Translations under genes and position numbers: made by a program
Assembly: GCA_015655615.1 (NCBI GenBank)
Contig: JAATES010000035.1
Span: 1-11,308, forward strand
Direction of reading: 5' to 3'
Length of the DNA stretch: 11,308 nt
DNA from: Actinomycetales bacterium
Lineage (GTDB): Bacteria; Actinomycetota; Actinomycetes; Actinomycetales; Cellulomonadaceae
Shown: one piece after another, positions 1 to 10,831 of the stretch
How positions within the stretch are numbered: the first letter of the stretch is position 1
Layout of the letters: each line of letters opens with the position of its first letter
Notes under the pieces: model-generated
Seen by the model: the letters and a program-made list of their open reading frames with translations, nothing else
Told to the model about the DNA's origin: nothing
Databases searched by the model: none

Positions 1-2969
1 GCGGCCTGCCGGACGGCGCTCGTCAGTCGCTCGATGTCACGGACTCCGGTGCTGGGCGTCGTCACCTGCGCCAGATCCCATGTGCCTCCCACCCCGAACG
101 GGCAGTCCCGGATCTCGATCTGGGGCGCAGTCAGATCCTCCCTGCTCAGACCGCCTAGGTAGCCGGTCTGGAAGAACCGCACGGCGCCGGGACCGACCTT
201 CGCCACCGCGCGTCCTGGAAGCCGCGGATCGAATCCGGCGGCATCCCTGACCCCCACCACGTCGAGGCTGTCGGCCTCATCCGCCAACCGGAGTGCCACG
301 CGCAGGTTCATATTCGCCCGCAAGCTCTCCCGGATCACGCCCGCAGGGCGTTGCGTGGCCAGCACGACGTGCAAGCCGAGCGAACGACCTCGCTGTGCAA
401 CATCCACCAAGCCGTCCATGAACTCCGGGACATCACTGGCCAATGCGGCAAATTCGTCCACCACGATCACCAAGGCCGGCGGGCACAACGGGTCGCCTTT
501 TCGTTCCAGATCGATGAGGTCCTTCGCGCCGGCCGCTGCCAACAATCGCTCGCGGTGGCGCAGTTCGGCTCGCAGCGAGGTCAGTGCCCGGCGCACCAAA
601 GGCGCCGTGAGATCCGTGACCAGGCCGACGGTGTGCGGCAAGCCCACGCATTCCGCGAATGCGGCACCACCCTTGTAATCGATGAGGAGGAATGTCACTC
701 GCTCGGGGCTATGTGCCATGGCGAGCGCCGTCACCCAGGTCTGCAAGAACTCCGACTTGCCAGAACCGGTCGTGCCACCCACCAGCGCATGTGGACCCTG
801 TTCGCGCAGGCTCAGCCTGAACAGCCCGGCAGGCTCCTGCCCGACGACCGCGTCGAGCAGTCCGGACTCGCAGGCCCAGCGGTCCATGATCGTGCGCGGC
901 AACATCGTCAGATCGCCACCGACCAGATCCGCATAGCTGACAGCAGCGGGCAGATCCGATTCATCGAGACCACGCGCCTCCGCATCCACGACGGCTGCGA
1001 TCTGCCGCGCCACGACCTCCGCATCGCGCAGCGGCACCCGCTCCAGGCTGGTCAGCGAGATCAGCTCCCCCTCGCGCACAAATCCCACCTGGGGCGAGCC
1101 CTCCAGCAGGGCAAAGGTCCGGCACGTCGCCGGCAGTAGGACGTCACTCCGAGCCAGCCAGATCAGGTGTATGCCGCAATCGGGCCCCTGCTCAGCGATC
1201 TCCAGAAGCCGGGCCGTCTCCACCACGGCGTCTGAGAGAACGAGGACGATGATGACGGGGGTCCGCGGAGGACTCTCGACTGCGGCACCGTGGAGCTTGT
1301 CGATGCCCTCCTGCGGTCGCAGGTGTGATCGAGGCGCCCCCCGAGGCGAAGGGATCTGTCCCTGGCCGCGCCGTGTACTGAGAATCTCTTGGAGGTGCGC
1401 CAAAAGCCGCGCAGCATCGAGTGCATTCCCTGCCAGGTGATTCCCCTGGACCGGGCTGTTGACGCTCCTGACATGCGGCAGCCATTTGAGCCATCCCCAG
1501 TTCGCGATCTGTGCAGGTTCCGCGAGACAGGTCACAATGAGGTCCTGCGGTGAGTGCAGACCTGTCAACTGCATGACTATGGCGCACAACGCCTCTTCCG
1601 CGACCCTGCCTGAGCCCACTACTCCCAGATTTCCAGCCCGGTCCAGCCGTTCGAGCACTGGCACCGGGCCGACCCGGTCGTGGCCGGCACGCAGTTCCTC
1701 GACCCGCTTCCAGGCACCTGGCTCGCTGTCTGTCTTCCCAGGGAGATCCCAGTCGAGCCGGGTGGAGAGCATCGCCTCACCCCAGCGCACTTCGCAGAAC
1801 TCCTGATGCTCCGGGCGCCTGGTCCACAACAGCCCACTGCGTGTGGCCATGGCGACCAGAACCGCTGCTGCTGTGGGGGATTCCGCCTGCCGCGAGCGGC
1901 GTTCCGAGTCCTGGAACTCCGCGATCTGCTCGGAGGCGCGGCGGAGCTCCGCTTCGAAGACGGCCATTCCCTCACGTCTCCGACGCCGAGTGGTCAGAAG
2001 AGAGTCGAGCCAGCTGGCGATCATGATCACGGGAGTGAGTACGACGAACATCAGGCTCATCAACGAGCGTGTCATCGCATACATCCCCGCCCCCATCAGG
2101 AGCGGAGCAGTCATGGCGACCAGCGGGGGGCGTTGCCGCTCAGTCCGCAGAGGCGGTGCAGGCAGCGCAAGAGTCATGCGCCGCAACCGCGTCACCACCC
2201 GGGCCGACCTCATGTGCACGACAGCCGGCTCCGTCGTCCGCCCGGGCGCCCCGGGTGATCGCGGACACGAGCCGTCATGATCATGAGGGGCAGTCTGAAC
2301 GGATGCCGGGACCGGCAGCAGCAGGCAGGAGGTGCCGCCCACCACCACCTCCGTGCCCGCAGCAAGCACAGCGAGATCCGTCCGAGAATTGCTGATCACC
2401 GTGCCATTGCGAGAGCCCACATCCGTGATCACCGCTCTGCCGTCTTCGATGTCGATGCGTGCGTGAAAGCGCGACACATGCGGGTCGGTCAGCCGCACCC
2501 GGCACCGCCAGTGCCTGCCCACCAGGTTCGCTCCATCCAGCAGGGGAAACTCCATGCCCCGCTGGGGACCCTCAAGGCACCGCAACAAGGCCTGGGGCTG
2601 GCGAGCGTCGCAGTCCCCGGGTTCGCGACGTCCGACCGGCACCGCCTGCACCCAGCTGCCCGATCGCACACCGGAAGTGGCCAGCGGCTCCGCCGAATCC
2701 AGCAGGATGCCGTGGTCACTCCCCGGCCGATGGACCCGTAGCGTCATCGGAGGAACACCCCCCGGCGCGGTCACCCGCGTCTGGCTGAGCGTCGCGGCTC
2801 CCCCCGCCAGGTGCGGGATGCTTGGCCCGCCTGGCCGGGCTGGTGTCACCGCCGGGTTCCCCTGCGCGATCATGTGCGCTGCCTGACCGACCGTCACCGT
2901 GACATCGGCTATCAACTCGAGGTCGACGGGTCGGCCTGAGTCACTGCATGCGGTGAGTCTGAGTTTCAT
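1..2969 (-). CDS. FHA-domain FtsK/SpoIIIE ATPase, EssC/EccC-like (3' part missing)
   Basis: A single open frame of 989 codons runs from the ATG at 2969 to the left edge, so the C-terminus is missing. Seen in order: an N-terminal beta-rich region; an FHA domain (about residues 130-215) with G151-R152, S166-R-F-H169 and the SRNGT motif at 186-190; two hydrophobic segments (about 283-299 and 303-321) followed by an Arg run and a charged, probably coiled helix (about 328-365); a linking domain; then an FtsK ATPase domain with Walker A GGTTGSGKSEF (731-741, K738), Walker B VIVVDEFAAL (834-843, D838/E839) and a downstream ATQRP motif. This order matches EssC/EccC, the membrane motor ATPases of type VII secretion, which usually carry further ATPase domains; these would lie outside the window. 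No WXG100 substrate gene is visible. ATG 2969 is chosen because the protein opens MKLRLT, as relatives do; the AGGAG upstream is about 15 nt away, which is too far. A cytoplasmic DNA translocase is less likely given the FHA domain. Confidence 0.85.
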   Translation of the reverse strand, partial: MKLRLTACSDSGRPVDLELIADVTVTVGQAAHMIAQGNPAVTPARPGGPSIPHLAGGAATLSQTRVTAPGGVPPMTLRVHRPGSDHGILLDSAEPLATSGVRSGSWVQAVPVGRREPGDCDARQPQALLRCLEGPQRGMEFPLLDGANLVGRHWRCRVRLTDPHVSRFHARIDIEDGRAVITDVGSRNGTVISNSRTDLAVLAAGTEVVVGGTSCLLLPVPASVQTAPHDHDGSCPRSPGAPGRTTEPAVVHMRSARVVTRLRRMTLALPAPPLRTERQRPPLVAMTAPLLMGAGMYAMTRSLMSLMFVVLTPVIMIASWLDSLLTTRRRRREGMAVFEAELRRASEQIAEFQDSERRSRQAESPTAAAVLVAMATRSGLLWTRRPEHQEFCEVRWGEAMLSTRLDWDLPGKTDSEPGAWKRVEELRAGHDRVGPVPVLERLDRAGNLGVVGSGRVAEEALCAIVMQLTGLHSPQDLIVTCLAEPAQIANWGWLKWLPHVRSVNSPVQGNHLAGNALDAARLLAHLQEILSTRRGQGQIPSPRGAPRSHLRPQEGIDKLHGAAVESPPRTPVIIVLVLSDAVVETARLLEIAEQGPDCGIHLIWLARSDVLLPATCRTFALLEGSPQVGFVREGELISLTSLERVPLRDAEVVARQIAAVVDAEARGLDESDLPAAVSYADLVGGDLTMLPRTIMDRWACESGLLDAVVGQEPAGLFRLSLREQGPHALVGGTTGSGKSEFLQTWVTALAMAHSPERVTFLLIDYKGGAAFAECVGLPHTVGLVTDLTAPLVRRALTSLRAELRHRERLLAAAGAKDLIDLERKGDPLCPPALVIVVDEFAALASDVPEFMDGLVDVAQRGRSLGLHVVLATQRPAGVIRESLRANMNLRVALRLADEADSLDVVGVRDAAGFDPRLPGRAVAKVGPGAVRFFQTGYLGGLSREDLTAPQIEIRDCPFGVGGTWDLAQVTTPSTGVRDIERLTSAVRQA

Positions 2970-3004
2970 TGCACTTGCCCGAGTCTCCTGATCCGCCAGC
3001 GCCA

Positions 3005-3051
3005 CCGGTCCGGCCGTCTGCCCAGGGTAGGGCTGCGCCCCGGCGGACCGG
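3005..3051. repeat. Inverted repeat CCGGTCCG / CGGACCGG
   Basis: CCGGTCCG at 3005-3012 is perfectly complementary to CGGACCGG at 3044-3051, with 31 nt between. Three more pairs (CCG with CGG) can be added on the inner side if one G is bulged. It lies between two divergent genes and just downstream of the putative minus-strand -10. It could be a regulator site or an RNA hairpin in the leader of the FtsK-like gene. GC-rich sequence makes such repeats fairly common, so function is not certain. Confidence 0.4.
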
Positions 3052-3054
3052 ACC

Positions 3055-3063
3055 TTATCCACA
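3055..3063 (+). promoter_or_regulatory. Perfect DnaA-box 9-mer TTATCCACA
   Basis: TTATCCACA matches the classical DnaA box exactly. It lies in the divergent intergenic region and overlaps the putative minus-strand -10 (TAAGGT, 3057-3052). I saw no second copy in the region, so this is not an origin of replication. A single box could allow DnaA control of the FtsK-like gene, or be chance. Confidence 0.35.
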
Positions 3064-3119
3064 GCCCCGCACGTCACTCCAGCCTCGAGTGCGCCTTCCC
3101 AGACGAGTAGCCTCCTCAT

Positions 3120-4016
3120 GTGGACACCATGACTCTGCTGCCGGTTCAGCAGTGGCTCGCGCTGGAGTCGGCGCATCAGGAGCGGGCGGACAGCCTCACC
3201 GCCGCCCGGCGGAATCGACAACGCAGCGGGCAACCAGATGAGGTCGAGGACTTTCTGTACACCTATTACCCGCTGCGCCCGGGCCTCGTACGTCGCTGGC
3301 ATCCCGGAGTCGGAGTCGCCCTGTCTGCGCCAGCCCCTCACCTCGCTGAGCGCAGCTCCTGGCGGTGGTACCGCCAGGAGGCCACCGCGGCGGGCCGGAC
3401 CGGCACGGTGATGTTCGATGCGGCAGGCTTTCTGGCAGATCGCCGTGCGGGAGTCGAGTGGATCGCCTCGCTGCTCACATCCACAGCCTCGCGCCCGCCC
3501 GCTCTGGGCTGCCTGGGACTGCACGAATGGGCGATGGTCTACCGCCAGCGCACGCATCGCCACGCGCTGCCGCTGCGCCTTGGACAGTCCGGCACCGACG
3601 CGGTTGTCGAAGCGCATCCACTCCGCTGCACTCACTTCGACGCCTTCCGGTTCTTCACCCCGGAGGCCAGACCGCGCAACGCCCTGCACCCGGAGCCGGA
3701 CACCCGGCTGGACCTCGAGCAGCCTGGCTGCCTGCACGCGAACATGGACCTGCTGCGCATCGCGACCAAGCTCGGGCCGGCAGTGCCCGGCGCCTTGCTG
3801 CTGGACTGCCTGGAGCTGGCCCGCGACATTCGCGTGCTCGATATGGAGGCCTCTCCCTACGATGTCCGCTCACGCGGCTATGGAGTGGTCGCCATCGAGA
3901 CCGCGGCCGGCCGGGCGGAGTATGTACGACGCCAGCGCGAGTTCTCGGATCGCGCCGGCCGACTGCGCATCCGCCTGCTGGCGGTGTGTGATGCGGTGCT
4001 CTCGGCGCACCGCTAG
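3120..4016 (+). CDS. Conserved actinobacterial protein, relatives often labelled 3-methyladenine DNA glycosylase
   Basis: 298 residues from a GTG start. I recognise the family as a conserved actinobacterial protein that databases commonly label 3-methyladenine DNA glycosylase; I see no helix-hairpin-helix or other glycosylase signature, so I treat that label as doubtful. Conserved-looking blocks are DFLYTYYPLRP (44-54), GCLGLHEWAMVYR (130-142), RCTHFDAFRFF (169-179), EQPGCLHANMD (200-210) and a segment near 230-245 with DIRVLDMEASPYD. The pairs C170-x-H172 and C204-x-H206, together with H135-E136, could form a metal site; this is inference. No signal peptide or membrane segment is visible. 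There is no Shine-Dalgarno sequence, but TAGCCT lies 6 nt before the GTG, as in leaderless actinobacterial genes. The ATG three codons in (3129) is the alternative start. It precedes the helicase gene by 124 bp on the same strand. Confidence 0.75.
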   Translation: MDTMTLLPVQQWLALESAHQERADSLTAARRNRQRSGQPDEVEDFLYTYYPLRPGLVRRWHPGVGVALSAPAPHLAERSSWRWYRQEATAAGRTGTVMFDAAGFLADRRAGVEWIASLLTSTASRPPALGCLGLHEWAMVYRQRTHRHALPLRLGQSGTDAVVEAHPLRCTHFDAFRFFTPEARPRNALHPEPDTRLDLEQPGCLHANMDLLRIATKLGPAVPGALLLDCLELARDIRVLDMEASPYDVRSRGYGVVAIETAAGRAEYVRRQREFSDRAGRLRIRLLAVCDAVLSAHR

Positions 4017-4032
4017 CGACAGCCTCTCCGCG

Positions 4033-4107
4033 CACGGCCGGCCCACCGTCCACGTCCGGCCCAGCCGCCCACGCTTGACCCCACTTCCCACGCCCGGCCC
4101 AGCCGCC
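4033..4107. repeat. Four imperfect copies of a 19-bp tandem repeat
   Basis: Units begin with CACG at 4033, 4051, 4070 and 4089, a period of 18, 19 and 19 bp. Copies 2 and 4 are nearly identical to CACGYCCGGCCCAGCCGCC, copy 1 keeps CACGGCCGGCCCA, and copy 3 is the most diverged (CACGCTTGACCCCA). The longest exact match is the 14-mer CCGGCCCAGCCGCC at 4056-4069 and 4094-4107. The array fills most of the gap between the 3120-4016 gene and the helicase. The unit length is not a multiple of three and no gene crosses it. It may be a small minisatellite or a set of protein-binding sites. Confidence 0.65.
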
Positions 4108-4127
4108 GGAGGATGGGCGCCGGGTGC

Positions 4128-4140
4128 GAGAATGGTCGCG
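4128..4140 (+). promoter_or_regulatory. Possible -10 element for a leaderless helicase transcript
   Basis: GAGAAT (4128-4133) lies 7 nt before the ATG at 4141 and there is no good Shine-Dalgarno sequence. The first base departs from TAnnnT and there is no clear -35, so this is only a suggestion. Confidence 0.25.
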
Positions 4141-6792
4141 ATGTCTATTCCTGGAGTCACGCCCCGTCCGGCCCCGCTCGCCGCACACCTGCCGCCTGCG
4201 ACGTCCGGCCGCTCACCCGATCCCGATCAGCTCAACGACGGGTTCACGGCATGGGCGACCGAGGCCGGATTCGAGCTCTACGACGCCCAGGCAGAGGCAG
4301 TCATGGAGCTGGTCACCGGCTCGCACGTCATCCTGGCCACGCCCACCGGCTCCGGCAAGTCACTGGTGGCGGCAGCGGCACACTTCGCCGCCTTGGCCGC
4401 GTTCCAGTCGCACACCGGCGGTCGGACCTACTACACGGCGCCCCTCAAAGCCCTGGTGAGCGAGAAGTTCTTCTCCCTCGTCCACCTGTTCGGCTCGGCC
4501 AACGTCGGGATGATGACGGGCGACTCGGCAGTCAACGCCCACGCCCCCATCATCTGCTGCACGGCCGAGATCCTGGCCAATGTGGCATTGCGCCGGGGCG
4601 GCACGGACACTGGACGCGATGCCATCAGCCAGGTGGTGATGGACGAGTTCCACTTCTACGCCGATCCGCAACGAGGCTGGGCGTGGCAGGTTCCCTTGCT
4701 GGAACTGCCTCGCACACAGTTCCTCCTGATGTCCGCCACGCTGGGCGACACCACCCGGTTCCGCGAAGACCTGGAGACCCGCAGCGGCAGAGCAGTGGCA
4801 GAGATCACCAGTACCCAGCGACCGGTGCCGCTGAGCTACGACTACGTCGTCGAACCGCTCGGAGAGGTCATCGAGGAACTGGTCACGACGCATCGCGCAC
4901 CGGTCTACGTGGTCCATTTCACGCAGAAGGACGCGGTCGAACGCGCTCAGTCCCTGCTCAGCATGACGGTGGCCTCGCGTGCCGAACGCGATCAGATCGC
5001 CGATGAGCTGGGTGACTTCCGCTTCGGTTCCGGCTTCGGAAAGACGTTGAGCAGATTCCTGCGCCACGGGGTCGGCGTCCACCACGCCGGCATGCTGCCC
5101 AAGTACCGGCGCGTGGTCGAGCGGCTGACACAGCGTGGGCTGCTCAAGGTGGTCTGCGGCACGGACACCCTGGGAGTCGGCATCAACGTGCCGATCCGCA
5201 CGGTCATGTTCACGTCCCTGGTCAAATTCGACGGCGAGCGCATGCGACACCTCACGGCACGGGAGTTCCACCAGATCGCGGGGCGAGCGGGCCGGGCCGG
5301 GTACGACACCCTGGGCGAGGTGATCGTCATGGCTCCCGAGCACGTCATCGAGAACCGCAAGGCCCTCGCCAAGGCTGGCGACGACCCGAAGAAGCTGAAG
5401 AAGATCGTCCGGAAGAAGGCCCCCGAAGGGTCGGTGAACTGGACCGACAAGACCTTCGAGCGCCTTCGCGACGCCGACCCCGAACCCCTGACCAGCCACT
5501 TTGCGGTCAATCACGCCATGGTCCTCAACGTGCTCGCACGTGCCCGCCGCGATCCGACGACCGATCCAGTCCAGGTCATGGCACACCTGCTGACCAGCAA
5601 CCATGACAACGAAGCCCAGAAACGCGCCCACGTGCGGCGCACCCTCCAGATCTATCGGTCCCTGCGCCAGACGGAGCTGCTCTCCCACACCACCGTGCGC
5701 GATGCCGGCGGGAAGCCCCGTCCCGTCGTGCGATTGACCCGGGACCTGCCCGACGACTTCGCGCTGAATCAGCCGCTGTCGCCCTTCGCCCTGGCAGCAC
5801 AGGACCTTCTCGCACTCGACTCCCCGACCCACACCCTCGATGTGGTCTCCGTCATCGAGGCCACCCTCGACGATCCCCGCCAGGTCCTGTACGGACAACA
5901 GCGCGCCGCCAAGGGCGAAGCCATCGGCGCCATGAAGGCGGAGGGCTACGACTACGACGAGCGCATGGCCGCGCTCGAGGACGTCACCTGGCCCAAGCCG
6001 CTGGACGACCTGCTCGCCCCGGCCTTCGCCACCTACAAGAGGACCAATCCCTGGGTCGCCGACCTTGAGCTCAGCCCCAAGTCCGTGGTCCGCGACATGC
6101 TGGAGACGGCGGCGACCTTCACCGAGTTCGTGTCGACCTACGGTCTGGAACGCACCGAGGGAGTCGTCCTGCGCTACCTCGCCGACGCCTACCGGGCCTT
6201 GCGTCAGACCGTGGCGGCCGACCACCGGACCGAGGAGGTCGAAGACGTGGTCGAATGGCTTGGCGAGTTGGTCCGCGGCGTGGACTCCAGCCTGCTCGAC
6301 GAGTGGGAACGCCTGGCCAATCCTGTCGACGACGACGCCGATGGCCTCGTCGGGGACGGGCCGCTGGCGGGGACCGGCGAGGAGGCGCCCGCGCGTCCGG
6401 TGACCGGCAACGCCAGGGCCTTCCGCGTGCTGGTCCGCAACGCCATGTTCCGCCGGGTCGAGCTGGCCGCACGCGAGAGGTACGCCGCACTCGGCGCTCT
6501 CGACGGAGCCGGTGGCTGGGACGGCGATACCTGGGCGGACGCGCTGAACCCGATGTTAGAGGAGTACGGCGATGACGCCATCGGATTCGATGCAGCCGCC
6601 CGCGGCCCGCAGCTGGTGCAGATCACGGAATCGGTCGACGGCGATCCGCGCCGGTGGCTCGTGCGGCAGGTTCTCGACGATCCGGACCACACCGGCGACT
6701 GGGCGATCACAGCGCAGATCGATCTCGACGCCAGCGATGAAGCAGGCGTGGTCGTGCTGCAGATCCTGGCCGTCGGACCGCATTCCGGGTGA
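4141..6792 (+). CDS. Ski2-like DEAD/DEAH-box RNA helicase with DUF3516-type C-terminus
   Basis: 883 residues. ATP-dependent helicase of superfamily 2, probably acting on RNA in the cytoplasm. Seen: Q-like motif LYDAQAEAV; Walker A ATPTGSGKS (66-74, K73); TAPLKALV motif Ia; Walker B DEFH (168-171); SAT motif at 198-200; the Ski2-like HHAG (314-317); motif V GTDTLGVGINVP (340-351); motif VI HQIAGRAGRAGY (377-388, both arginines present). The roughly 470 residues after the core match the long C-terminal region (DUF3516) of actinobacterial members as I recall them. The frame is open back to 3418, but that stretch overlaps the 3120-4016 gene and reads as an off-frame shadow. ATG 4141 (protein MSIPGV) is preferred over ATG 4132; neither has a good ribosome binding site. 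A TTA leucine codon, rare here, occurs at residue 806. The gene ends 79 bp before the ybaK-like gene. Confidence 0.93.
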   Translation: MSIPGVTPRPAPLAAHLPPATSGRSPDPDQLNDGFTAWATEAGFELYDAQAEAVMELVTGSHVILATPTGSGKSLVAAAAHFAALAAFQSHTGGRTYYTAPLKALVSEKFFSLVHLFGSANVGMMTGDSAVNAHAPIICCTAEILANVALRRGGTDTGRDAISQVVMDEFHFYADPQRGWAWQVPLLELPRTQFLLMSATLGDTTRFREDLETRSGRAVAEITSTQRPVPLSYDYVVEPLGEVIEELVTTHRAPVYVVHFTQKDAVERAQSLLSMTVASRAERDQIADELGDFRFGSGFGKTLSRFLRHGVGVHHAGMLPKYRRVVERLTQRGLLKVVCGTDTLGVGINVPIRTVMFTSLVKFDGERMRHLTAREFHQIAGRAGRAGYDTLGEVIVMAPEHVIENRKALAKAGDDPKKLKKIVRKKAPEGSVNWTDKTFERLRDADPEPLTSHFAVNHAMVLNVLARARRDPTTDPVQVMAHLLTSNHDNEAQKRAHVRRTLQIYRSLRQTELLSHTTVRDAGGKPRPVVRLTRDLPDDFALNQPLSPFALAAQDLLALDSPTHTLDVVSVIEATLDDPRQVLYGQQRAAKGEAIGAMKAEGYDYDERMAALEDVTWPKPLDDLLAPAFATYKRTNPWVADLELSPKSVVRDMLETAATFTEFVSTYGLERTEGVVLRYLADAYRALRQTVAADHRTEEVEDVVEWLGELVRGVDSSLLDEWERLANPVDDDADGLVGDGPLAGTGEEAPARPVTGNARAFRVLVRNAMFRRVELAARERYAALGALDGAGGWDGDTWADALNPMLEEYGDDAIGFDAAARGPQLVQITESVDGDPRRWLVRQVLDDPDHTGDWAITAQIDLDASDEAGVVVLQILAVGPHSG

Positions 6793-7369: not shown

Positions 7370-8150
7370 GACCCGGGGTGAGGCGCATATCACGGGGTCC
7401 GAGCAGGATCTCGCCCTCATCGGCCCTCGCGTCCGGCACGCCTGCCAACGTCTCTGGGCAGCGATGGCGTCCGCAGATCGCAGTCCGGACTCCGTGGCTC
7501 TGCTCCTGGCGACGAAGACCCAGCCTCCGGCTGCCGTTCGCGCCGCAGTCCTCGCCGCCCGCGACTGCGGCATCGAACCGGCCGTGGGTGAGAACCGCGT
7601 ACAGGAGTTGGTTGCCAAAGCCGGGGTCTTCGCAGAGCTGGGCGTCGCCGCGCACCTCATCGGCCCGCTCCAGAGCAATAAGATCTCGGCCGCGCTCACA
7701 GCACTGGGCACGCCTGGACTGGCCGGAGCGTGCATCCAGACCGTTGCGTCCCTCGACCTTGCGCACCGGCTGGCCCGGCGCACCACTGCGAGCGCTCCCC
7801 TCCCCGTCATGGTGCAGGTGAACGTCTCAGGAGAATCGGCCAAGAGCGGTGTCGATCCCCGGGACGGCGTCTCGTTGGCGGAACAGATCGCCGACGTGCC
7901 CGAGCTGACCTTGGCCGGGTTCATGACCGTCGGCGCCAGAAGTGCCGACTCGTCGGTCGTGATCGCCGGGTTCGACCGCCTCCGGGCACTGCGCGATACG
8001 GTGTGGCACAGCGGGCTGCCCGGCACCGAACGTGCTCACGACCTGTCCATGGGGATGTCAGGCGACCTCGATTGGGCCGTGGCATCCGGCGCGACCATGG
8101 TGCGACTTGGCACGGCCGTGTTCGGGCGGCGACCGGCGGTGTCGTACTGA
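7362..8150 (+). CDS. yggS: YggS/PROSC-family PLP-binding protein
   Basis: 262 residues. YggS proteins bind pyridoxal 5'-phosphate through a lysine, fold as an alanine-racemase-like barrel, and help hold PLP and amino-acid pools in balance without a known catalytic reaction. Seen: LLATKTQPP with K52 as the likely PLP lysine (relatives usually read VAVSKTKP); GENRVQEL; HLIGPLQSNK; VQVNVSGESAKSG; and the C-terminal phosphate-binding block LSMGMSGDLDWAVASGATM followed by VRLGTAVFG. The GTG at 7362 is chosen because GGAGA lies 6 nt before it; an in-frame TTG at 7347 is less likely. It overlaps ybaK by 8 nt (GTGCCTGA). Many actinobacteria keep yggS in the ftsZ-sepF cluster, so its place beside ybaK is less usual, and a second copy elsewhere is possible. 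Confidence 0.9.
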   Translation: MPETRGEAHITGSEQDLALIGPRVRHACQRLWAAMASADRSPDSVALLLATKTQPPAAVRAAVLAARDCGIEPAVGENRVQELVAKAGVFAELGVAAHLIGPLQSNKISAALTALGTPGLAGACIQTVASLDLAHRLARRTTASAPLPVMVQVNVSGESAKSGVDPRDGVSLAEQIADVPELTLAGFMTVGARSADSSVVIAGFDRLRALRDTVWHSGLPGTERAHDLSMGMSGDLDWAVASGATMVRLGTAVFGRRPAVSY

Positions 8151-8175
8151 CCGTGTGGGACTCAGGTCCGCCGGT

Positions 8176-8211
8176 TTGCTCCGAGACGCCCCTGTGCGTC
8201 AGAGTCATGGC
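8176..8211 (+). promoter_or_regulatory. Possible promoter of a leaderless transcript for 8212-8907
   Basis: TTGCTC (8176-8181) and CAGAGT (8200-8205) are separated by 18 nt, and the second hexamer lies 6 nt before the ATG at 8212. That ATG has no Shine-Dalgarno sequence. The arrangement fits a leaderless transcript, but both hexamers are imperfect. Confidence 0.3.
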
Positions 8212-8907
8212 ATGAAACGACTGTTCTCCCGGCGACCGGCGACCGCGGCCCTGCCCGAACTGGCCTCTGAGTCGTGGGACAGCGAGGGTCACGTCGTCAT
8301 CGTGCACCTGGTCCACGACACGCTCCGGCCTGAAGACCACGAGAGCGCCGACCGCCTGACCACAGGGATCGTCGCCGTGGTGACCGCCATCCAGGCAGGT
8401 GTCGTGGCAGAATCGATCCCCGAGGGAACCCAGAATGCCGGCGTGCGCCTGCAGATCGAGCCCAGTGATCGGCACTTGGGACCTCTGGAAGAACGCACCG
8501 TCGAGATCTTCTCGGAGAGACTGGGGACGTCGATCCCGATCACTGTCACCGATGGCGCGAACCCGCCGGACGTTGAGGACGACCCCGAGGAGGACCCCAA
8601 GATCGCCGACCCCGTGTTCAGCTGGGATCCCTCTGAAGCCGCACTGTCCACGACGGTGAAGCTGCCCTTGACCAGTCCGCAGACCCGAACCGCACGGGTG
8701 GCGAGGGCAGCCCTCGACGCCGCCCTCACCGGAATAGCCAAGCCCGGGAATCGGGACCTGATTCCTGGCGACCTTGCGGGCTCCGCCCGTTACTCCGTGT
8801 CCATCGTGATTCACCCGCGCTCGGACCTTGGCCCCGCGACGGCGGCGATCATCGACCGCGCAACCGAGAGGCTCTCCGGCACCCGGGTCGATTTAGCCTG
8901 GAAGTAG
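8212..8907 (+). CDS. Unrecognised protein with two homologous halves
   Basis: 231 residues; I do not recognise the family. After a short basic start (MKRLFSRRP) it falls into two similar halves joined by an acidic linker (about 114-142, rich in Asp, Glu and Pro). Half 1 (about 27-112) and half 2 (about 145-229) share a strand with V-x-L (V31/V149), a helix, a strand ending in a Pro (QIEP 81-84, VIHP 199-202), LGP (89-91, 206-208), then a helix with ERL (102-104, 219-221) and Gly-Thr before a last strand. The offset is 117-118 residues throughout. Each half would be beta-alpha-beta-alpha-beta. No signal peptide, membrane helix or catalytic motif is visible. ATG 8212 is preferred; GTG at 8155 or 8194 is possible. 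One TTA codon occurs at residue 228. Its stop directly abuts the stop of the convergent cimA gene. Confidence 0.8.
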   Translation: MKRLFSRRPATAALPELASESWDSEGHVVIVHLVHDTLRPEDHESADRLTTGIVAVVTAIQAGVVAESIPEGTQNAGVRLQIEPSDRHLGPLEERTVEIFSERLGTSIPITVTDGANPPDVEDDPEEDPKIADPVFSWDPSEAALSTTVKLPLTSPQTRTARVARAALDAALTGIAKPGNRDLIPGDLAGSARYSVSIVIHPRSDLGPATAAIIDRATERLSGTRVDLAWK

Positions 8908-10578: not shown

Positions 10579-10605
10579 AAAAAAACCCCCCGAGGCGTCG
10601 GGAGG
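10579..10605 (-). terminator. Intrinsic terminator in the cimA leader (attenuator)
   Basis: On the minus strand CCTCCCGA (10605-10598) pairs with TCGGGGGG (10593-10586) over 8 bp, with one G-U pair and the loop CGCC, followed at once by seven T (10585-10579). This is a standard intrinsic terminator pointing toward cimA, with 75 nt left before the cimA ATG. There is no T run on the plus strand, so it acts in one direction only. Its position between a leader peptide and the gene marks it as an attenuator rather than the end of another gene. Confidence 0.85.
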
Positions 10606-10608
10606 TCT

Positions 10609-10639
10609 GCGCATCCGGGCCGTTCTAGCTCAGATGCGC
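10609..10639 (-). promoter_or_regulatory. Leader hairpin upstream of the attenuator
   Basis: GCGCATC (10639-10633), which covers the last sense codons of the leader peptide, is perfectly complementary to GATGCGC (10615-10609). It would be the 1:2 (pause) hairpin of a classical attenuator. An alternative pairing of CCGGATGCG (10618-10610) with CGCCTCGGG (10597-10589), 7 of 9 positions, would break the terminator and could be the antiterminator. Both pairings were found by eye and no energies were computed. Confidence 0.5.
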
Positions 10640-10671
10640 GTGCCAATAATGCTCAACGCCACAGCTCGCAT
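10630..10671 (-). CDS. cimA leader peptide MRAVALSIIGTRI
   Basis: A 13-residue ORF, ATG at 10671 and TGA ending at 10630. Its sequence has Ile at 8, 9 and 13, Val at 4 and Leu at 6, so five of thirteen residues are branched-chain, and the two adjacent Ile codons (ATT ATT) are AT-rich against the local bias. AGGA (10682-10679) lies 7 nt before the ATG. The ORF ends 24 nt before the terminator stem. This matches leader peptides of ilv and leu operons, where ribosome stalling on scarce aminoacyl-tRNA prevents termination. With isoleucine scarce, a ribosome held at codons 8-9 would cover the last codons and open the downstream hairpin. The peptide itself probably has no other role. Confidence 0.8.
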   Translation of the reverse strand: MRAVALSIIGTRI

Positions 10672-10831
10672 GTCGTCATCCTGCCATCCGGTCCTGCGCA
10701 ACGCAAAAATCGTACGCCTCGTAGCGGTGTGACCTCATGATCCCGAACTTGCGGAGGCGTCTCGCTGAGTGCCCTTCGGTTGCGGCTGGACAATATACCC
10801 GTAGGCTGGACAAAAGGGTCTAGGGCCCCTC
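10672..10831. promoter_or_regulatory. Divergent promoter region between the cimA leader and the secreted-protein gene
   Basis: This holds the promoters for both directions. For cimA, TACGAT (10714-10709, minus) is a fair -10 placed to start transcription about 20 nt before the leader's ribosome binding site; its -35 is poor. For the secreted protein, TTGCGG (10780-10785) and TAGGCT (10802-10807) are 16 nt apart on the plus strand. A 10-bp direct repeat overlaps the latter promoter. All hexamer calls are by eye. Confidence 0.4.
10784..10813 (+). repeat. Direct repeat GGCTGGACAA, two copies 20 bp apart
   Basis: GGCTGGACAA occurs exactly at 10784-10793 and 10804-10813, a start-to-start distance of 20 bp, near two turns of the helix. 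The first copy lies in the spacer and the second overlaps the -10 of the putative plus-strand promoter (TTGCGG, TAGGCT). This is the placing expected of an operator bound by a dimer or by two copies on one face of the DNA. I do not know a regulator with this site. Confidence 0.5.

Follow-up and report, generated by a model that had tools for sequence, protein, structure and literature searches.

The closest described systems are the leaders of actinobacterial ilvB genes (Streptomyces ilvL, Mycobacterium ilvB1, and Corynebacterium ilvB-II), in which a short reading frame with codons for branched-chain amino acids runs into a first hairpin, followed by a terminator with a U-tract. Antiterminators have been suggested both for ilvB-II (PMC10272879) and for ilvB1 of M. 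tuberculosis (PMC13236596) in the available parts of these papers, and for Corynebacterium ilvB-II pairing through the loop of the first hairpin has been put forward (PMC10272879). In 2005, Seliverstov called the mode of action of the ilvB leaders with terminators unclear, because codon mutations in the S. coelicolor leader were without effect, which is at odds with the classical model of attenuation (PMC1262725). The leader described here shares the general layout of these leaders, as a branched-chain amino acid frame at a first hairpin is followed by a terminator. It differs from them in preceding cimA instead of ilvB, in carrying isoleucine codons where the ilvB leaders carry valine, leucine, or isoleucine codons, and in that no antiterminator was found among the cimA leaders.

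A broader comparison is offered by the thr, trp, leu, ilv, and his attenuators of Escherichia coli. The cimA leader resembles these in its control codons for the end product, its intrinsic terminator, and its position before a biosynthetic gene, the control-codon frame and the terminator being found by sequence and folding; unlike the E. coli attenuators, the cimA leaders are without a detected antiterminator and without a recognisable leader ribosome site, and their hairpins abut. For mycobacteria, leaderless leaders with cysteine codons were reportedly described by Canestrari in 2020. Leaders of this kind have also been predicted (PMC4633059). They share with the cimA leader a leaderless short frame that is rich in the end product, but this product is cysteine, and conserved terminator hairpins are absent there according to the available part of PMC1262725. 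Similarly, the LEU element before actinobacterial leuA places a leader frame ahead of a homologous condensing enzyme; it contains, however, a run of leucine codons and a pseudoknot that pairs these codons with a Shine-Dalgarno box (PMC1262725), whereas the cimA leaders have isoleucine as the repeated residue and end in an intrinsic terminator. Finally, leaders of ilvB, leuA, leuS, trpE, trpS, metN, and thrS in S. lividans were reported to be leaderless (PMC8079986). None of the eight S. lividans leaders named in the available part of that paper belongs to cimA, a cimA leader does not occur in the available part of the 2005 study (PMC1262725), and the main text of a motif-discovery paper, as far as available, mentions neither citramalate nor isopropylmalate (PMC6429828). 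An initial sequence-only reading of the locus, made from the letters and translations of the DNA, had known of no description of attenuation at an actinobacterial cimA; likewise, no cimA attenuator was encountered in the literature searched, most subscription journals being outside its scope.

In the window (the whole stretch of DNA that was analysed, 11,308 nucleotides), cimA lies on the minus strand and is preceded by the leader elements listed in Table 1. The sequence-only reading had proposed a 13-residue frame with three isoleucine codons (two of them adjacent), one valine codon, and one leucine codon, a hairpin covering its last codons, and an intrinsic terminator with seven T, all on the cimA strand and within 170 nt of the cimA start. 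These parts were retrieved. The frame, which runs from ATG (10671) to TGA (10630), was confirmed base for base, its isoleucines occupying codons 8, 9, and 13 and the adjacent pair being encoded by AUU in both cases. The hairpin over the final codons (P1) consists of 9 bp plus 3 bp inside, with its 5' edge 5 nt past the second isoleucine codon. The terminator hairpin (P2) has an 11-bp stem, adjoins P1 without a linker, and runs into the seven T. The leader measures 93 nt from its start codon to the end of the U-tract, and cimA starts 168 nt beyond the leader ATG. Taken alone, the window sequence is weak evidence for a leader. Indeed, a single-sequence scan gave four terminator-like sites in the window versus 3.5 in shuffled sequences, the P2 stem being the longest of the four, and the folding z-score of the leader was -2.2, with eight of 200 shuffles equally good. 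Conservation lifts the leader above chance, since it is carried by nearly all related cimA loci and its stems covary, as described below.

Table 1. Features of the cimA leader region, with their positions in the window.
Feature	Position	Strand	Basis
cimA, citramalate synthase, 531 amino acids	8908..10503	-	TIGR00977, 619 bits (cut-off 450)
U-tract, seven T	10579..10585	-	Sequence; first three T also paired in the stem as folded
Terminator hairpin P2 (AGACCUCCCGA-CGCC-UCGGGGGGUUU)	10583..10608	-	Folding, covariation, conserved abutment
Hairpin P1 (GCGCAUCUG...CGGAUGCGC)	10609..10639	-	Folding, covariation, conserved spacing
Leader reading frame MRAVALSIIGTRI, followed by stop codon	10630..10671	-	Sequence; isoleucine-bearing counterpart frames among relatives
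Control codons AUU AUU (Ile8 Ile9)	10645..10650	-	Isoleucine pair in all four codon combinations; AUU enrichment
Predicted transcription start, first base of leader start codon	10671	-	Deduced from the 6-nt spacing of the -10 hexamer
-10 hexamer CAGGAT, after GATGG	10678..10683	-	Box spacing in relatives; includes AGGA
Weak -35 candidate TTGCGT	10701..10706	-	Read from sequence, 17 nt 5' of the -10 hexamer; low confidence

The product of cimA was also matched by leuA models, which stayed under their cut-offs. The isoleucine content of the leader fits the predicted role of the enzyme as a citramalate synthase and supports this assignment, as the sequence-only reading had argued: the cimA leaders are rich in isoleucine, while five ilvB leaders found in the class are instead rich in valine and without an isoleucine pair. 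Elsewhere in the window, slightly more than 2 kb from cimA, a DEAD-box helicase with a DUF3516 domain is encoded (3418-6792, plus strand). The same domain is presumably carried by the DEAD-helicase protein ML1624. The latter protein was proposed in 2005 to bind the LEU element of leuA (PMC1262725). An open frame convergent with cimA (8032-8907, plus strand) gave no Pfam match, even at an E value of 0.1. A further frame (3-3737, minus strand) encodes an FHA plus FtsK/SpoIIIE protein that is related to EccC/EssC of type VII secretion, below the cut-offs of those models.

Relatives fetched via CimA yielded 111 regions (L001 being a second copy of the window) and 110 distinct loci, the window included, several genomes being represented twice, from two collections; most of the named relatives belong to Cellulomonadaceae or allied groups, within the NCBI class Actinomycetes. 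Three loci with 10-54 nt of upstream DNA (L051, L057, and L076), thus short of 60 nt, were left out. Among the 107 loci with enough upstream DNA, the leader, consisting of a short isoleucine-bearing frame, P1, and P2 with its U-tract, precedes cimA in 106, L075 being the sole exception. An explicit frame was picked by script in 101 of the 106 leaders, 100 of them with a terminator by the script rule and one (L021) with a terminator recognised by eye and model; in L023, L097, L102, L104, and L106 (truncated at its 5' end) the leader was recognised by a covariance model. A leader is present in Cellulomonas xylanilytica, for example (L041). The frames end in LIIE, LIIA, IIIS, LILT, IVIA, and similar residues before the stop codon. 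The window and its genus mates (L003-L005) do not possess the stop codon at the base of P1; their frames extend three codons further into P1 (ending in TRI, ERV, ERI, or ERA), and the stop codon sits within the P1 5' arm. Long forms occur elsewhere in the class too, for instance IIGRRAG and IIGSRRAGPQ. The sequence-only reading had suggested aligning the upstream DNA of related genomes and had named a lack of conservation as evidence against its proposal; the short isoleucine-bearing frame and the terminator turned out to be conserved far past the genus.

The reach of the leader was assessed with a covariance model (R1), built from 49 leaders including that of the window. Among 59 relative genomes, R1 found matches in 45, every one of which had a single strong match, and G017 an additional weak one. 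These were 45 of the 51 relative genomes with a cimA ortholog and none of the eight without cimA; in G047, one of the six cimA-bearing genomes that were missed, the gene is truncated by the start of its contig. At the level of the order, 128 of 297 genomes gave a match, and at that of the class 237 of 394 (85 of 122 genera), cimA itself being present in 308 of these 394. Among the matches listed, the R1 match was located on the same contig and strand as cimA in all 96 genomes compared, 20-230 nt upstream (median 65). Forty match regions, chosen for family breadth, were fetched: 31 lie before cimA (at 27-224 nt), five before ilvB, and four before neither. The last four (L153, L157, L166, and L167), all with E values of 7e-5 or weaker, were treated as false matches. 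A scripted search for strong hairpin-plus-T-tract terminators in the fetched loci gave 104 cases, 100 of which match upstream sequences of cimA or of R1 matches, two of the 100 (L153 and L157) being weak R1 matches that are neither cimA nor ilvB leaders. The class count of 237 is probably a floor, since G335, G589, and G613, all of one large-genome family and absent from the class match list, show the leader before cimA with filters off. Not every class match lies at cimA, as the cimA gene of G494 (R1 E value 8.7e-6) is not preceded by a leader (L206).

Twenty additional regions upstream of cimA were inspected as well, the majority from genomes that R1 did not match. The leader was present in five of them (L200-L202, L213, and L214). 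Seven others (L195-L198 and L203-L205) are without a leader, as is L075, and in all of these, which span several lineages, an ilvE or ilvE-like frame ends just 5' of cimA. Six of these eight upstream frames were tested with models, those of L195 and L204 being judged by eye. In L075, the frame scores above the threshold of the ilvE model (408 bits, cut-off 250). Five fragments had ilvE as the first- or second-ranked family but stayed under the cut-off, since just their C-terminal part had been fetched. The genomes of the family to which L203-L205 belong measure 1.2-2.2 Mb. The remaining eight regions (L199 and L206-L212) contain neither leader nor ilvE; in L207, L208, and L210, cimA itself seems, by eye, to be leaderless behind its own promoter. 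Hence, cimA genes that follow ilvE directly have no leader, and neither do some cimA genes in different surroundings.

A link with the ilvB leaders emerged from the same searches. Second, weaker R1 matches were seen in G017, G124, G137, G164, G191, G261, and G280, about 6-20 kb from the cimA match. The second match of G164 (L162 with L163) is an ilvB leader, which suggests that cimA and ilvB leaders may share an origin. R1 gave no match on the ilvB leader of the genome under study, MQTKILVVLPGRVG followed by a stop codon (L112, about 3510-3380, minus strand). Inspected by eye, this leader looks leaderless, with TACCAT 7 nt before its GTG. It also displays, by eye, a GCGCG...CGCGC pairing just before its terminator, in a layout that resembles that of the cimA leader.

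Upstream of the leader frame, relatives possess a CANNAT-like hexamer that follows TGTG and mostly stands 6-7 nt 5' of the start codon. Indeed, the best-scoring TGTGNCANNAT-like box is spaced 6-7 nt from the leader start in 106 of 116 leaders (five of the 116 being ilvB leaders), and high -10 box scores were obtained for 80% of 117 leaders versus 0% at five upstream-shifted controls picked by the same procedure, the former figure being somewhat inflated, as the choice of start in the frame-picking scripts favoured -10-like boxes. A strong -35 consensus was not found across the leaders of the relatives. AGGA, GGAG, or GAGG occurs near just six of 116 leader starts. In the window, the string AGGA (10682-10679, minus strand) had been taken by the sequence-only reading as a ribosome site of the frame. 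This part of it was not supported: because a -10-like box stands at that place in relatives and Shine-Dalgarno-like strings are rare, AGGA most likely belongs to the -10 box. With a placed -10 box and no Shine-Dalgarno sequence, the leader frame is probably leaderless, transcription starting at its start codon.

Both hairpins covary. In a MAFFT alignment of 49 leaders, P1 and P2 together contained 10 pairs with double changes and 75 supporting cells, versus 5.8 and 22.3 after shuffling, and slid controls gave 0-3 pairs and 0-16 cells. A model-fitted alignment of 36 matches, five of which are ilvB leaders, contained 13 pairs and 90 cells versus 8.0 and 25.2 after shuffling, although this alignment leans towards the structure and its shuffles ignore relatedness. 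Across the 36 class matches, the GCGCG/CGCGC base of P1 is almost invariant, although pairing would permit other pairs; a protein, pausing, or decoding constraint is possible. Four T positions of the U-tract are invariant among 79 aligned leaders. The isoleucine pair, which is present in 30 of 31 class leaders and 61 of 81 family leaders, is encoded by ATT ATC (43 cases), ATC ATT (26), ATT ATT (18), and ATC ATC (16). As the family leaders were picked for isoleucine, the frequency of this residue in them does not count as independent evidence; the choice among its codons played no part in the picking. AUU makes up 69 of 163 leader isoleucine codons (42%) in the family set versus 53 of 2239 (2.4%) in cimA frames from 109 loci of the family, an approximately 18-fold enrichment, and 110 of 231 once the class leaders are added. 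The retention of isoleucine through synonymous change, the enrichment of AUU, and the preserved distance between the isoleucine codons and P1 point to selection on decoding.

This distance from the last isoleucine codon to P1 is 4.5 ± 1.0 nt in the family (79 leaders, as L015 and L016 of the 81 did not fold into two stems) and 5.4 ± 1.4 nt in the class (31 leaders). The gap between P1 and P2 is 0-1 nt in all 110 folded cimA leaders and in four of five ilvB leaders, the fifth being folded with 12 nt. P1 itself varies in length from 22 to 71 nt, and its first base can lie as far as 25 nt upstream of the stop codon's end or 1 nt downstream of it. Four ordinary terminators were left after classification, one of which abuts an upstream hairpin, and no base rate is claimed from these. 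The placement of P1 relative to the isoleucine codons and to P2 is fixed, that of the stop codon less so, which points to P1 as the sensor and the P1-P2 junction as the output.

The folding of ribosome states had been proposed as a check; in the models, P1 depended on the state, and an antiterminator was not found. Equilibrium folding with a modelled ribosome retained the terminator at 0.77 or more in every state for 12 of 14 leaders (outliers being L103, with 0.67 at the stop codon, and L015, with 0.00, apparently from a misassigned terminator stem) and was uninformative on antitermination. As five E. coli attenuators also remained at 0.86 or more throughout, this test was replaced by one on truncated RNA, in which leaders are cut just 5' of the terminator 3' arm and ribosome-covered bases are blocked. 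In this test, P1 of the cimA leaders is intact at 0.84-0.88 with the first isoleucine codon in the A site, at 0.53-0.62 with the second, and at 0.00-0.05 at the stop codon. Sequestration of the terminator 5' arm at the control codons of the E. coli controls amounted to 0.62 for thr, 0.62 for trp, 0.50 for leu, up to 0.79 for ilv, and 0.60 for his, and fell to 0.00-0.19 at the stop codon, except for his (0.60), which marks a limit of the method. The same test on 110 cimA leaders revealed no antiterminator, sequestration averaging 0.02 at the first isoleucine codon (maximum 0.19) and lying at 0.12-0.18 at the second, where a single leader among the 79 of the family rises to 0.55. With the ribosome upstream of the isoleucine codons, values of 0.00-0.35 were obtained in the 13 cimA leaders shown. 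In these models, the usual partner swap appears to be absent, if anything reversed. Since the P1 loops consist of 56-63% C, an ilvB-II-like pairing between the P1 loop and the terminator 3' arm was considered too, leaders with loops under 4 nt being omitted. It was rejected, as it beats the shuffle mean in only 18 of 74 family leaders and 15 of 29 class leaders. Single leaders pair well, at -10 to -13 kcal/mol (-13.1 for L185 and -11.5 for L092), and the pairing energy in the window is 0.0 kcal/mol.

That the cimA leader acts as an attenuator can be stated with high confidence, and it is likely an isoleucine-specific, ribosome-dependent transcription attenuator that belongs to a class-wide family. 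The isoleucine-type attenuator of the sequence-only reading stands as regards its conserved isoleucine frame and terminator, but not as regards an antiterminator of the classical E. coli type, so that the switching step is probably not classical. Transcription would start at the start codon of the leader frame, and a 70S ribosome would load on the leaderless message. When isoleucine is plentiful, this ribosome would pass the isoleucine codons, reach the stop codon, and melt P1, after which P2 would end transcription. When charged tRNA-Ile is scarce, it would stall at AUU AUU, P1 would stay folded, and RNA polymerase would read into cimA. P1, which the stalled ribosome would keep in place and which adjoins P2 directly, may form a steric obstacle to closure of the lower P2 stem inside the exit channel of RNA polymerase. 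The step from folded P1 to read-through is the least certain one; it was reached by elimination, as no antiterminator pairing was found. The model needs a stall mainly at the first isoleucine codon, since P1 is half melted with the second one in the A site. The absence of the isoleucine pair from 20 of 81 family leaders counts against the mechanism, as does the rise of terminator-arm sequestration at the stop codon (0.22-0.24), which is the wrong way for a classical reading. Further points against it are the eight of 20 additional cimA regions that contain neither leader nor ilvE, and the one experimental precedent, the ineffective codon mutation in the S. coelicolor ilvB leader. A widespread attenuator without an antiterminator, in which a stalled ribosome protects P1 and P1 blocks the terminator until a finishing ribosome melts it, is put forward as a tentative model, possible but open to considerable doubt.

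Other explanations of the leader deserve consideration. In a classical attenuator, a stall at isoleucine would let an antiterminator form that takes up one arm of the terminator. The leader frame, control codons, and terminator that this demands are all present, actinobacterial trp and leuS attenuators have been described as such (PMC1262725), and some leaders, such as L185 and L092, have a C-rich P1 loop able to pair with the 3' arm of P2. However, the contrast in 5' arm sequestration between the five E. coli leaders (0.5-0.8) and the cimA leaders, the limited advantage of the P1 loops over shuffled ones and their lack of pairing energy in the window, and the probably leaderless message, which would offer no further upstream RNA for pairing, make this explanation very unlikely. 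An equally improbable case is that of P2 as a fixed terminator that lowers expression, the isoleucine codons having no regulatory role; the ineffective codon mutations in the S. coelicolor ilvB leader, cited in PMC1262725, would agree with it, but isoleucine kept through synonymous change, the AUU enrichment, and the maintained distance to P1 argue against it.

P1 could alternatively be a pause hairpin that synchronises the ribosome with RNA polymerase, so that timing or coupling would decide the outcome and not the blocking of P2 by P1. P1 ends approximately 11 nt before the P2 loop, which is the usual distance for a class I pause hairpin; the short leader implies tight timing, and the near-invariant base of P1 would suit this role too. 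A pause alone, however, leaves unexplained how a strong terminator is passed under isoleucine scarcity, and this explanation is rather unlikely. A T-box or metabolite riboswitch, finally, is extremely improbable. Although isoleucine T-boxes precede ileS in Actinobacteria (PMC1262725), no Rfam family reached its gathering score in the window, and a message that begins at the leader frame would not be long enough to hold a T-box.

The citramalate route to isoleucine is likely under end-product control, and removal of the terminator would be predicted to raise cimA expression. The leader also favours calling these LeuA-like enzymes citramalate synthases. More than 100 leaders with a fixed spacing between isoleucine codons, P1, and P2 constitute a natural data set on how actinobacterial branched-chain leaders act without a clear antiterminator. 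If the tentative model of P1 blocking the terminator is true, the same logic may serve the ilvB leaders of Actinomycetes. The cimA leader represents a conserved regulatory RNA, mostly with one strong model match per carrying genome, in a class that comprises many industrial species.
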